Part shown: piece by piece, positions 26,129-32,481 of the stretch
Layout of the letters: the number at the start of each line of letters is the position of its first letter
Position numbering within the stretch: position 1 is the first letter of the stretch
Source of the DNA: Terriglobus aquaticus
GTDB lineage: Bacteria; Acidobacteriota; Terriglobia; Terriglobales; Acidobacteriaceae
DNA length: 64,000 nucleotides
Assembly (NCBI RefSeq): GCF_025685415.1
Contig: NZ_JAGSYB010000001.1
Coordinates: 248,001 to 312,000, forward strand
Direction: 5' to 3'
Translations under genes and position numbers: made by a program
The notes under the pieces: generated by a model
The model's database searches: none
What the model was told of the DNA's origin: nothing
The model's input: the letters and a program-made list of their open reading frames with translations, nothing else

Positions 26129-26132
<4 letters not shown>
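24060..26132 (+). CDS. M3-family metallopeptidase (oligopeptidase A / dipeptidyl carboxypeptidase type)
   Basis: 690 residues. Zinc oligopeptidase degrading short peptides. The zinc motif is in [14 protein letters not shown] near residue 475, with the downstream family segment [13 protein letters not shown]. The start is the ATG at 24060 because GGAGA lies just upstream; a slightly longer frame exists. No signal peptide is apparent, so probably cytosolic. The stop overlaps the stop of the convergent metH gene by 4 nt. Confidence 0.94.
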
Positions 26133-28845
<2,713 letters not shown>

Positions 28846-28849
<4 letters not shown>

Positions 28850-29964
28850 GCGGCGGCCGTTTCGGCTTCCAGCGCGCGTGGCTCCGCGTGCTCCAGCCGC
28901 TTGGCGATCGCGGAAATATGCTCCGGCGTGTTCCCACAGCAGCCGCCCGCGATATTCAGCAAACTTCCCTGCGCAAACTCGCCCAGGTATCGCGCCATGT
29001 CCTCGGGCTCCAGGTCGAACCCGGTGGGCGACAGAGGATTCGGTAGACCGGCGTTGGGGTACGCGGATACGGCAACCGTAGCGCGTGACGCAAGGTCGGC
29101 CAGAAATGGATACATCAGATCTGGCCCTAACGAGCAGTTCAGCCCCACGCTCAAGGGCCGTACATGCTCGACCGCGGTCCAGAAGGCTTCCACCGTCTGC
29201 GCGCTGATCATGGTTTCTCCACCTCGGCCAACGGCGGCGCTGATCATCACGGGGACTTCCGGTAGATTGGGCGCACGCTCGTCCAGAACTTCCCGAATTG
29301 CCACCAGCGCGGCTTTCGCATTCAATGAATCGAAGATCGTCTCGACCAGCAGCAGGTCGACTCCACCCGCCAGCAGCGCTCGCACCTGCTGCACATACGC
29401 CGCTTTTACCTGGTCGAAGGTGATGACCCGAAAGCCGGGATCGTCCGGGTCGGGAGAGTTCGACAGGGACACCGTCAATGGACCGATCGCCCCGGCCACA
29501 AAGCGTTGGCGCCCCGTGTCACTGCCCACCTGGTCGGCCAAGGTGCGGCACTGCTGCGCGCTTGTCTGGTTGATCTCCCACGCGAGGGCTTCCAGTTCCG
29601 GATCGCCGACGATGCTCGAGTAGAACTCCGGGTCTTTGCGGCCGCCGTGTTCTCGCGGATCATCGCGGAAGAACTCGCTTTGCGCGATGCTCGTCGCGCC
29701 AAAGGTGTTCGTCTCGAGGATGTCGGCACCAGCTTCCAGAAATCGACGGTGAATATCCAGGATCATCGCGGGCTGCGTCAGACTGAACAGGTCGCCGTTA
29801 TTCAGGAGGTCTTTGGGGGCATTGCGGAAGCGTTCTCCGCGCATGTCTGCCTCCGTCATCCCATATGTCCGGATGGTGGTTCCCATGGCGCCATCCAAAA
29901 TGGCAATGCGCTGCCGCAGTACATCACGGAGCGGGTGAGACGGAATGGAGGCACGGCCGGACAT
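28846..29964 (-). CDS. metH: Methionine synthase, homocysteine-binding chain
   Basis: 372 residues from an ATG at 29964. Betaine/homocysteine methyltransferase fold, with [12 protein letters not shown] at the start and the zinc cysteines in VGLNCSLGP and [13 protein letters not shown]. It corresponds to the first domain of single-chain MetH and ends before the pterin domain. The stop overlaps the GTG of the second chain, which should give balanced synthesis. A longer open frame to 30042 runs through the structured leader and was not used. Confidence 0.94.
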
Positions 29965-29980
29965 CGCTTCTATTCGATGA

Positions 29981-30061
29981 TACGGGTCGAGCCGTAGTAG
30001 CAGTTTGCTGATCCGGTGGCTTGCATAGACCACGGGTTGCAAACCGGCGTCCTCACCCGTA
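29981..30061 (-). promoter_or_regulatory. Possible bistable leader RNA of metH
   Basis: In the minus-strand transcript the segment ACGGGU (30055-30060) can pair with a near partner (30032-30037) or, extended to 7 bp, with a distal one (29981-29987). In the distal form GGUUUGC (30039-30045) pairs with GCAAACU (30002-30008), and an inner GUGG/CCAC hairpin forms. The near form buries the GGUUUGC strand in a loop. The distal strand ends about 10 nt before the AGAAG ribosome site. It matches no riboswitch class I can recall, and only comparison would tell chance from function. Confidence 0.35.
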
Positions 30062-30148: not shown

Positions 30149-30523
30149 ATGTCTACGCTGCTACAGGACCCCGAACAGAAAGTCATTCTCCACATCTGCA
30201 CGCGCGAAACTTTGCGGCCCCTTCGCGATCAGATTTTGCGTCTCTCCGGCTTCCAGGTAGATTCCACCCTGGATTGGAAAGAAGGTATGGAGATGTTCTG
30301 GAGCCGTCACTATGATCTGGTTCTCATTGACGTTGAAGGGGAACAGCAGGTTCCGAACGCCGAGCACCTCTGCTCGGAAATCAAGACAGCGAACCCTGAG
30401 CAATTGGTAGCCTTCGTGTGCAACTGGCGCGTCGCCGTCATGACCGACTGCCCGGATGAGATCCTCCGTACGGAGTTCGACCCACGGCGGTTCGTGAGCG
30501 GCGTGAAGAAGATGGTGGAGTAG
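30149..30523 (+). CDS. Degenerate response-regulator receiver protein
   Basis: 124 residues with the alternating strand-helix pattern of a stand-alone receiver domain. The phosphoacceptor-like Asp61 is present in YDLVLIDVEG. The N-terminal acidic pair is absent (KVILHICTRET where VVDD is usual), and the later Thr and Lys switch residues are not recognisable (VAFVCNWRV). It probably works without phosphorylation, or not as a classic receiver. No kinase is adjacent. AAAGAAGG precedes the ATG. Confidence 0.65.
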   Translation: MSTLLQDPEQKVILHICTRETLRPLRDQILRLSGFQVDSTLDWKEGMEMFWSRHYDLVLIDVEGEQQVPNAEHLCSEIKTANPEQLVAFVCNWRVAVMTDCPDEILRTEFDPRRFVSGVKKMVE

Positions 30524-30614: not shown

Positions 30615-30747
30615 CTGAGTTTCATGAAGAGTGGCTGAGGGACGAGCCCTGCGACGCCACGACAACCGGACGAGCCTTGTACCGGTGTCAACTCTCTCCT
30701 GGAGTGCCTCGCAATCCATCGCAGGCGACGGGGAACATGAGATTCGG
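30615..30747 (+). ncRNA. SAM-I (S-box) riboswitch
   Basis: The closing helix P1 is 12 bp with wobbles (CTGAGTTTCATG with CATGAGATTCGG). Inside, GTGGC pairs with GCCAC around TGAGGGA and CCCT, followed by GACAACC, the S-box GGCAACC element with one change. P3 is ACCGG/CCGGT and is followed by GGTGTCAACTC, the S-box GGTGCTAATTC element. P4 is GCCT/AGGC. This order and these conserved blocks are those of the SAM-binding S-box aptamer. It lies 130 nt before the threonine-synthase-like gene. Confidence 0.87.
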
Positions 30748-30831
30748 CAACAAGCACCACGCACGTTTGTGGCATAGCGGTTTGTCCGTCTAATCAGGCT
30801 TCCTTCAGCAAACTTCTCTTTGCTGGTCCAT

Positions 30832-30874
30832 CCGAGAGGCGTCGCGTCTTGTACCTTCTTCCACTCGGAAGAGG
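30832..30874 (+). promoter_or_regulatory. Riboswitch expression platform: ribosome-site sequestering hairpin
   Basis: CTTCTTCC (30855-30862) pairs with GGAAGAGG (30867-30874) around a 4-nt loop. The second strand contains the ribosome binding site 4 nt before the ATG at 30879. An alternative helix, CCGAG (30832-30836) with CTCGG (30864-30868), shares bases with it and would free part of the site. The layout fits translational rather than transcriptional control. Confidence 0.6.
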
Positions 30875-30878
30875 TTTC

Positions 30879-32174
30879 ATGCAGCCTGCGTGTCGCGCTC
30901 CGTTTGAGCTCTATTCCAAAGAGTCAGGGAAGAGCTATGGGAATCAACCCCTCTCGATTTGTGACGAGTCCTTCACGCCCCTCGAGGTCCGGTACGACCT
31001 GGACGCAGTCAAGGGACAGGTGACGCGCGCCTCGATCGAAGCAGGTCCCGCAAACATGTGGAGGTACACCTCGCTGCTGCCTATTCCTGAGGGTTTTGAG
31101 CCTGACCTGCCGGTCGGTTTCACGCCGCTGGTGAAGGCTAAGAACCTGGGAAAGCGCGTTGGCTCCAACAATCTGTATGTGAAGAACGATGCGGTCTGCT
31201 TCCCGACGCTTTCCTTCAAGGATCGCGTCGTTGCTGTCGCGCTCGCGAATGCTCGTCACTTCGGCTTCGAAGTCGTTGGCTGCTCTTCCACCGGCAACCT
31301 GGCCAACTCGGTGGCTGCGCAGGCGGCGCGGTTGGGGCTGAAGGCGTGCATCCTGGTTCCGGCCGACCTCGAGCCGGCGAAGATCCTGAATACGCAGGTG
31401 TATGGTGCTCGCCTTGTTCGCATTGACGGCAACTACGACCATGTGAACCGCCTGTGCTCGCTGATTGCGGATCAGTACAACTGGGGCTTCGTTAACGTGA
31501 ACCTGCGCCCCTACTATGCGGAGGGTTCGAAGTCCGTCGGCTTTGAGATTGCTGAACAGCTTGGCTGGCGCCTACCGGACAACGTGGTTGTGCCCATGGC
31601 AGGCGGCTCGTTGATTCGCAAGATCAAGAAGGCTTTCGACGAGCTCCTTTACCTGGGCCTGGTTGAAGCCAAGCCGGTCCGCTTTTTTGGCGCGCAAGCC
31701 ACGGGATGCTCACCCATCTCTACTGCGGTGAAACAAGACACTGAAACGATCACCCCGCAGCGGCCGAACACGATTGCGCGGTCTCTTGCCATTGGCAATC
31801 CGGCCGACGGACCCTACGCATCGCGCATGATCCGCGAAGTAGGCGGGTATGCCGAAGACGTGTCCGACGTGGAAGTCGTCGCTGGCATCCAGGAACTCGC
31901 GGAGACAGAAGGCATCTTCACGGAGACCGCAGGTGGTGTCACCACTGCCGTAACGGCGCGCCTTTTGGCACAGGGACGCATCGGAACGGATGAACTTACG
32001 GTATCCGTCATCACCGGCAACGGCCTGAAGACCACTGACGCGCTTGCTGGTCGCTATGAACTCGGCCGCGCCGTCCGGCCGCGCCTCGGTGATTTCGAGG
32101 AGTATCTCGCGGAACTCGATGGTCCCACCGCGGTTGCCCCCGAACTCGAACCGGAACTCATTCCGGCTGACTAA
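30879..32174 (+). CDS. Threonine-synthase-family PLP enzyme under SAM riboswitch control
   Basis: 431 residues. Fold type II PLP enzyme. The Schiff-base Lys114 is in LSFKDRVVAV, the phosphate loop SSTGNLANS is at 136-144, and GNGLK is near the C-terminus. The active-site approach reads KNDAVCFPTLSFKDR rather than the classical EGLNPTGSFKDRG, so it is a distinct ThrC subtype. The N-terminal zinc-ribbon-like part has lost most cysteines. The start is the ATG at 30879 with GAGG upstream inside the riboswitch hairpin. Annotators would call it thrC. Riboswitch control and the adjacent sulfur carrier suggest instead O-phosphohomoserine sulfhydrylation or a dual role, which is inference. Confidence 0.85.
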   Translation: MQPACRAPFELYSKESGKSYGNQPLSICDESFTPLEVRYDLDAVKGQVTRASIEAGPANMWRYTSLLPIPEGFEPDLPVGFTPLVKAKNLGKRVGSNNLYVKNDAVCFPTLSFKDRVVAVALANARHFGFEVVGCSSTGNLANSVAAQAARLGLKACILVPADLEPAKILNTQVYGARLVRIDGNYDHVNRLCSLIADQYNWGFVNVNLRPYYAEGSKSVGFEIAEQLGWRLPDNVVVPMAGGSLIRKIKKAFDELLYLGLVEAKPVRFFGAQATGCSPISTAVKQDTETITPQRPNTIARSLAIGNPADGPYASRMIREVGGYAEDVSDVEVVAGIQELAETEGIFTETAGGVTTAVTARLLAQGRIGTDELTVSVITGNGLKTTDALAGRYELGRAVRPRLGDFEEYLAELDGPTAVAPELEPELIPAD

Positions 32175-32199
32175 CCCGAACCCTGTAAGGAGTTGTACT

Positions 32200-32481
32200 G
32201 TGTCAATCCGTGTCATGCTTCCAGCCGCCTTCGCCCGCCACACTGACGGGACAAAGCAGGTGGACTCGCAAGCGGCTACGCTGCCCGCCCTGGTTGAGGA
32301 TCTGGGAACGAAGTTCCCGCAACTGGGCTCGCACATCAAGGACGAAGATGGACGTCTTCGCAAGTTCATCAACGTGTACGTCAATGACGAAGACATCCGC
32401 TTCCTGGGCGGAGACACTTACCAGTTCCAGGACCGTGATGAAGTGATGTTCATCCCCAGCATCGCCGGTGGCCTGCGCTAG
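32200..32481 (+). CDS. ThiS/MoaD/CysO-like sulfur-carrier protein
   Basis: 93 residues, ubiquitin-like beta-grasp. GTG start at 32200 with TAAGGAG 7 nt upstream and 25 nt after the PLP-enzyme gene, so in the same SAM-regulated operon. RKFINVYVNDEDIRFL and RDEVMFIPSIAGG are the family's core strands and tail. The C-terminus is Gly-Gly-Leu-Arg, so two residues would have to be removed before the Gly-Gly end could be adenylated and turned into a thiocarboxylate. No activating E1-like enzyme or JAMM peptidase is in the window. Confidence 0.88.
   Translation: MSIRVMLPAAFARHTDGTKQVDSQAATLPALVEDLGTKFPQLGSHIKDEDGRLRKFINVYVNDEDIRFLGGDTYQFQDRDEVMFIPSIAGGLR

Follow-up and report, generated by a model that had tools for sequence, protein, structure and literature searches.

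The 64,000-nucleotide stretch of the Terriglobus aquaticus genome analysed here (the window; contig NZ_JAGSYB010000001.1, positions 248,001 to 312,000) carries an S-box riboswitch for S-adenosylmethionine (SAM), followed on the same strand by genes for a ThrC-like enzyme dependent on pyridoxal phosphate (PLP) and for a ThiS/MoaD-type sulfur carrier, which we refer to as metM and metO (Table 1). An earlier note on this DNA had read the arrangement as a SAM-controlled route to homocysteine that takes its sulfur from the carrier. The aptamer that it placed ahead of the enzyme is borne out by a full-length match to the RF00162 covariance model (30619-30743, plus strand; model positions 1-108 of 108), scoring 64.9 bits where the gathering threshold is 44.4 (E 8e-13), and this is the single S-box found in the 4.16 Mb genome.

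The open frame of the enzyme spans 30849-32174, and we set its start at ATG 30879 rather than TTG 30849 because of the relatives and of the Shine-Dalgarno sequence GGAAGAGG. Its membership of the ThrC family, also claimed beforehand, is confirmed by 222 bits against PALP (Pfam) and by 273.7 bits against the TIGR00260 thrC model, which exceeds the equivalog cut-off of 167.1. Threonine synthases are its closest counterparts among solved structures and folds; a structure model (16 rows, mean predicted local distance difference test score 76.5) speaks for the ThrC fold only, the ThrC matches in the fold search having a root-mean-square deviation near 13 A. The sole cysteine synthase among the 25 models shown of 36 that match is NF007989 (cysteine synthase A, 33.8 bits), and a comparison with the genome's own CysM- and CysK-like proteins gave no match at E 1e-3. 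Compared with Thermus thermophilus ThrC, NPTGSFKDRG has become CFPTLSFKDRV, STGNTA has become STGNLA and NSVNPHRLEG has become NVNLRPYYAEG. These changes lie in the lysine-loop, STGN and Asn-rich motifs, which we take to touch the substrate.

The carrier gene begins 25 nt past the enzyme's stop codon. Its product matches the ThiS profile with 50 bits, and its top match among solved structures is CysO of Mycobacterium tuberculosis (3dwg). The carrier was thus correctly recognized and placed in the earlier note, but the Gly-Gly described there as its tail is not terminal, as the C-terminus reads ...IPSIAGGLR, with Leu-Arg after Gly-Gly.

A second, true threonine synthase, which the earlier note had suggested looking for, was found elsewhere in the genome. 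Eight PALP-family proteins are encoded, of which three belong to the ThrC family: the window enzyme, a thrC whose frame overlaps thrB (TIGR00260, 282 bits; TIGR00191, 227 bits) and which retains the classical ThrC motifs, and a PRK08197-type protein that lies above the PRK08197 cut-off and just below that of TIGR00260. In a maximum-likelihood tree, 29 enzymes of the window's phylum and 11 actinobacterial enzymes form one clade, supported at 100/100, to which the ten remaining ThrC-family rows do not belong; long branches occur in the outgroup, that of the genome's own thrC being the longest, and the Streptomyces rows come from loci of the same gene order, not from S. albulus MetM itself. The motifs STGNL, N[VI]NLR, AIG[ND]PADG and E[TP]AGG, chosen after the alignment had been inspected, occur in 40/40 rows of this clade and in none of the ten others. 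By tree and by motifs alike, the window enzyme neither groups with the threonine synthases nor retains their motifs.

The actinobacterial members of the clade share the gene order of the window. The enzyme of a Nonomuraea replicon is 55% identical over the match and is accompanied by an S-box (68.7 bits) and by a carrier that ends in GG. This replicon (NZ_LT559118.1, L058), 11.85 Mb long and listed by PLSDB among plasmids, is apparently the chromosome and carries MetX besides MetM and MetO. Scanning genomes with a query headed by the Nonomuraea enzyme gave 589 loci, the best 80 of which are all Actinomycetota by name, many of them Streptomyces. Among these best 80, the S-box was present in 15/15 loci tested and the carrier in 78/80, the two misses stopping at a contig end; 53 of the 78 carriers end in GG, 21 in GGC and four in other tails. 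PMC12172450 credits Hasebe et al. (2024; doi 10.1128/aem.01247-24) with the discovery of MetM, a Streptomyces homocysteine synthase that converts O-phosphohomoserine, places a SAM riboswitch upstream of S. albulus metM and names the carrier-like metO; the portions of PMC7311316 and PMC12452182 at hand contain nothing on this enzyme.

Within the window's own phylum, we sampled 149 genomes and read 30 of the 35 metM loci, the window's included. A clear MetM ortholog is present in 35 genomes, with at least 47% identity or, in one (G112), as a fragment cut off by the contig edge that is 80% identical; the proteins ranking next reach at most 39%. The S-box stands upstream of metM on the same strand, one per genome, in 21 of the 35, within 0.4 kb in 19 and about 2.3-2.4 kb away in two (G019 and G128), while a carrier follows metM in 17 of the 30 loci. 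Given these counts, the S-box-enzyme-carrier arrangement is real and not due to chance, and the search for it in other genomes that the earlier note had called for succeeds both here and in Streptomyces and its relatives. At least one further ThrC-family protein was counted, by rows, in 34 of the 35 MetM genomes; the exception, G140, is 91% complete.

MetM also tends to stand in for the enzymes that acylate homoserine. MetX was called at E <= 1e-60, a threshold of our own choosing, the curated 500-bit cut-off being passed by no genome and by none of the controls; on this basis MetX is present in 33 genomes and MetA, over its cut-off, in eight, together 41. Only two of the 35 MetM genomes are among them, against 9.6 expected (Fisher one-sided p = 4e-4), and counted by genus the overlap is 2/26 (p = 0.02). 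In the window's family, MetM occurs in 12 sampled genomes and MetX in three, with both in none and neither in none, and in family f31 each occurs in two genomes. Two of the four families that hold both systems, the window's and f31, are therefore cases of a swap inside the family, and the other two are true overlaps. By the thresholds used, 75 genomes have neither MetM nor MetX/MetA. S-boxes were found in 54 genomes of the phylum in all, and those away from metM are consistent with control of homocysteine formation. Each of the seven MetA-bearing f22 genomes carries one about 1.4 kb ahead of metA on its strand, and eight genomes counted as having neither system (G001, G015, G017, G031, G040, G087, G097 and G115) carry one 0.3-1.7 kb ahead of a weak MetX-like match. 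Eighteen S-box genomes fall outside the MetM, MetA and weak-MetX groups, and the three genomes of that family, the window's, in which MetX occurs gave no S-box match.

In the window genome, searches for MetA and HcyBio returned no match, and that for MetX gave nothing beyond a match of 121 bits to a protein that, judged by eye, seems to carry a signal sequence. We rejected this protein (C1:2203631) as a supplier of acetylhomoserine on account of that sequence and of matches in the same score class that coexist with a strong MetX in G007, G073 and G121. The MetX-like alpha/beta hydrolase at L158:1982-3145 (plus strand) has an apparent signal sequence, and other genomes in this family also give weak MetX matches that score about the same. 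Three of the 12 Cys/Met family matches are strong, namely a cystathionine beta-lyase and a PRK08249 protein, both over their cut-offs, and a protein of the gamma-synthase/gamma-lyase type below every cut-off shown; none of the three passes the MetY/MetZ sulfhydrylase cut-offs, which were applied in the window genome only. The expected absence of the usual homocysteine genes thus holds for MetA, HcyBio, a convincing MetX and MetY/MetZ, but cystathionine-lyase and cystathionine-synthase-like proteins are present.

Taken with the Streptomyces clade, the common gene order and the separate thrC-thrB pair, these comparisons support the proposal that the enzyme makes homocysteine from O-phosphohomoserine with carrier sulfur, which is in all likelihood right. 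It is not new, because the same gene order is found in Streptomyces, where MetM has been reported to turn O-phosphohomoserine into homocysteine; the pathway was published for that genus in 2024. We consider it highly probable that the window locus encodes a MetM/MetO homocysteine synthase under SAM control. The value of the locus lies in the wider distribution, the swap with MetX, the tailed carrier and the operon with E1 and desulfurase genes in relatives; the tailed carriers of the family, together with its JAMM peptidase, and a carrier-less sister clade are new details.

Table 1. Features of the metM-metO locus and the adjoining metH genes (window positions).
Feature	Position	Strand	Evidence
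metH C-terminal part, pterin-binding, B12-binding and activation domains	26129..28849	-	PF00809, PF02607, PF02310, PF02965
metH N-terminal part, homocysteine S-methyltransferase domain	28846..30042	-	PF02574, 255 bits
S-box (SAM-I) riboswitch aptamer	30619..30743	+	Rfam RF00162
Candidate expression platform, hairpin overlapping Shine-Dalgarno GGAAGAGG (30867-30874)	30857..30872	+	Leader fold
metM, ThrC-like fold-type II PLP enzyme, proposed homocysteine synthase using O-phosphohomoserine	30879..32174	+	Profile matches, tree, motifs, fold
metO, ThiS/MoaD-type sulfur carrier, 93 aa, ending GG-LR	32200..32481	+	ThiS profile, CysO structure match

The leader between aptamer and enzyme folds with a terminal hairpin that pairs part of the Shine-Dalgarno sequence with upstream bases, ahead of the start codon, and because of this overlap the S-box probably acts at the level of translation. 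In an alignment of seven sequences of the window's family, the window included, the six-pair helix is paired in 88.9% of cells and two pairs are changed on both sides. Covariation support for the hairpin is weak, since shuffled controls reach the covariation score in 23/500 cases and the number of both-side-changed pairs in 269/500.

On the other side of the S-box, metH was correctly described in the earlier note as a divergent neighbour, but it is split in two, and 577 bp separate its start from the S-box and 837 bp from the start of the enzyme. The two genes overlap by 4 nt and encode a methyltransferase protein and a pterin/B12/activation protein. A small open frame between metH and the S-box (30149-30523) has no Pfam match.

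How the carrier might be matured is suggested by the other sulfur genes of the genome. Four ThiS-family carriers lie over the cut-off: one followed by a MoaE-like frame, one short, that of the window and one that forms a fusion with MoeB and rhodanese domains. The last of these stands at L051:6238-9219 (minus strand) together with a CysM-type protein and a JAMM peptidase, the only Prok-JAB match in the genome, and the cluster looks like a cysteine cluster of the CysO-CysM-Mec+ type. The Gly-Gly of the carrier part is internal to this fusion and would need cutting. Residues beyond Gly-Gly are found in 10/10 carriers examined in the window's family (the G023 locus has no carrier before the contig end, and G112 is outside the count), whereas the other carriers of the phylum, 7/7, end exactly at Gly-Gly. 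The Gly-Gly of MetO would accordingly need to be exposed by trimming of the tail. A strong JAMM match is present in 15/15 sampled genomes of the family, MetX users included, and we therefore rejected this count as proof of trimming; the presence of the peptidase is a requirement of the idea and no proof of it. For charging, M. tuberculosis offers a precedent, as PMC3227635 reports that the MoaD-type carriers and CysO are charged by a single E1, of the MoeZ type, and that Mec+ frees cysteine from CysO. By this analogy, a single E1 common to several carriers is plausible.

Some relatives have a different solution. In G019 (L166:560-4611), an S-box, a ThiF-type E1 gene, a cysteine desulfurase gene (TIGR01977, over the cut-off), metM and metO follow one another on one strand with gaps of 84, 13, -4 and 25 nt, and G128 (L167) has the same order, with 86% identity in the E1 and 85% in the desulfurase; these are two of the 30 loci read. 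Neither genome (completeness 100 and 92%) has a Prok-JAB match and their carriers end in Gly-Gly, which suggests that homocysteine could leave the carrier there with no JAMM peptidase. G110 and G026 likewise have a ThiF-type gene in the vicinity of metM; in G009, a JAMM peptidase gene and one for a carrier-MoeB-rhodanese fusion are found less than 5 kb from metM and metO; and in G051 and G063 an aspartokinase-like amino-acid kinase follows metO (Pfam for G051 only). A sister clade of MetM-like enzymes (L044-L050; support 99/95) lacks the carrier and has the S-box in 3/7 loci. Its neighbours include homoserine dehydrogenase in G125 (Pfam), which also has MetX, and thrC in G014. The MetM-like enzymes of this clade, encoded close to hom, lysC-like or thrC genes, might work with free sulfide or serve another purpose. 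Two further carrier-less copies, in G041 and G077 (L066 and L065, outside the tree), adjoin ArgZ/LOR-SDH-like genes (Pfam for L065 only).

For the window we infer the enzyme's own homocysteine activity, the trimming and thiocarboxylation of MetO, the E1 that serves it and the mode of control. O-phosphohomoserine, a substrate common to ThrC and MetM, would come from ThrB, whose gene lies elsewhere in the genome alongside that of the true ThrC. The tail of MetO would be removed, probably by the genome's one JAMM peptidase, and its C-terminal glycine would be adenylated and thiocarboxylated, perhaps by the MoeB-rhodanese fusion beside that peptidase (no search for other ThiF-type E1 proteins was made in the window genome). 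MetM would then eliminate phosphate from O-phosphohomoserine and add the sulfur of the MetO thiocarboxylate at the gamma carbon, and the neighbouring MetH would methylate the resulting homocysteine to methionine. In the work of Hasebe and colleagues, MetO is said to be thiocarboxylated and to feed MetM. When SAM is plentiful, the S-box would let a hairpin bury the ribosome-binding site of metM. More tentatively, MetO of the window's family might be an inactive pro-carrier whose tail is cut by the lone JAMM peptidase of the cysteine carrier cluster, so that this peptidase, and perhaps the MoeB-rhodanese fusion too, would serve both cysteine and homocysteine synthesis; the E1-desulfurase operon of relatives and the carrier-less clade would be the alternatives to such an arrangement.

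Several observations weigh against a MetM/MetO homocysteine synthase at this locus. Transsulfuration from O-phosphohomoserine may operate in this genome, because it has cystathionine-lyase and cystathionine-synthase-like proteins. MetM and MetX occur together in Nonomuraea (MetX 53.5%), in G125 of the carrier-less clade and in G077, whose MetM has no adjoining carrier and is outside the tree; five Streptomyces plasmid records also match MetX. Counted by family, the overlap between MetM and MetX/MetA is 4/19 (p = 0.29) and not significant. The N-terminal zinc-ribbon cysteines (CxxC...CxxC) are kept in 39/40 rows, and the window enzyme alone has lost them; at 30879-30980, three of the four are replaced, all by serine. 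PMC12172450 reports threonine as the product of a cyanobacterial enzyme that shares 51.6% identity with S. albulus MetM and has an adjoining carrier gene. Finally, a profile search of all frames found no linked carrier in 13 of the 30 phylum loci.

This last count bears on the alternative that survives best, in which the enzyme makes homocysteine from O-phosphohomoserine with free sulfide and the carrier serves elsewhere or only helps. In its favour, eight of the 13 carrier-less loci (L030, L035, L040, L041, L042, L045, L047 and L050) also keep a close upstream S-box. We nevertheless regard it as unlikely, given that the carrier adjoins metM in the other 17 loci and in 78 of the best 80 of 589 scanned loci, those 80 being Actinomycetota by name, and that E1 and desulfurase genes are joined to metM-metO in two genomes. 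An ordinary threonine synthase, with SAM control and carrier neighbour incidental, would account for the TIGR00260 score and for the nearest structures and folds; we reject it as highly improbable in view of the separate thrC-thrB pair, the distinct clade with its rewritten motifs and the retention of the S-box across several families and in Actinomycetota. Equally improbable, and likewise rejected, is the Mycobacterium model, a CysM-like cysteine synthase that would work with O-phosphoserine and the carrier. CysO as the carrier's best structural match speaks for it; against it stand the enzyme's place in the ThrC rather than the CysK/CysM branch, the genome's own CysM-type protein in an operon with the JAMM peptidase and carrier-MoeB fusion, and a SAM control that points to methionine.

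A SAM-controlled MetM/MetO system in this phylum would extend a recently described methionine route to another phylum and explain homocysteine synthesis in genomes that have neither MetX nor MetA. Because the TIGR00260 model accepts the window enzyme and cannot tell MetM from ThrC, automatic annotation likely mislabels MetM, and pathway surveys likely report a false methionine gap; the four motifs are a simple first means of separating the two. The compactness of the S-box-E1-desulfurase-metM-metO operon of the two relatives would allow the charging of the carrier, the origin of the sulfur and the requirement for a peptidase to be studied side by side. Phage records of Listeria (four, 5.2-5.7 kb) and Enterococcus (3.5 and 75 kb), H42-H47, also contain thrC-like genes, and the short records look like misfiled host DNA.

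Of the known systems, Streptomyces MetM/MetO is alike in its ThrC-like enzyme, upstream SAM riboswitch, adjoining carrier, O-phosphohomoserine route and clade. The window locus differs in belonging to another phylum, in the two residues after Gly-Gly, in the lost zinc-ribbon cysteines, and in a genome whose JAMM peptidase and carrier-MoeB-rhodanese fusion lie elsewhere with a CysM-type gene. The M. tuberculosis CysO-CysM-Mec+ system (PMC3227635) shares a CysO-like carrier, a fold-type II PLP enzyme, a thiocarboxylate donor, a MoeZ-type E1-rhodanese and a JAMM-type peptidase, whereas the window enzyme is of the ThrC branch, with O-phosphohomoserine as the expected substrate and SAM control. ThrC itself (T. 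thermophilus, 1uim) has the same fold, PLP lysine and expected O-phosphohomoserine substrate, and differs in the motifs that are rewritten in the window enzyme. In Wolinella succinogenes, HcyS, HcyD and HcyF together with MetY make homocysteine from a carrier thiocarboxylate after C-terminal trimming of the carrier by a metallopeptidase, and thus resemble the proposed system in sulfur donor and carrier trimming, but MetY is a fold-type I enzyme that uses acylated homoserine.

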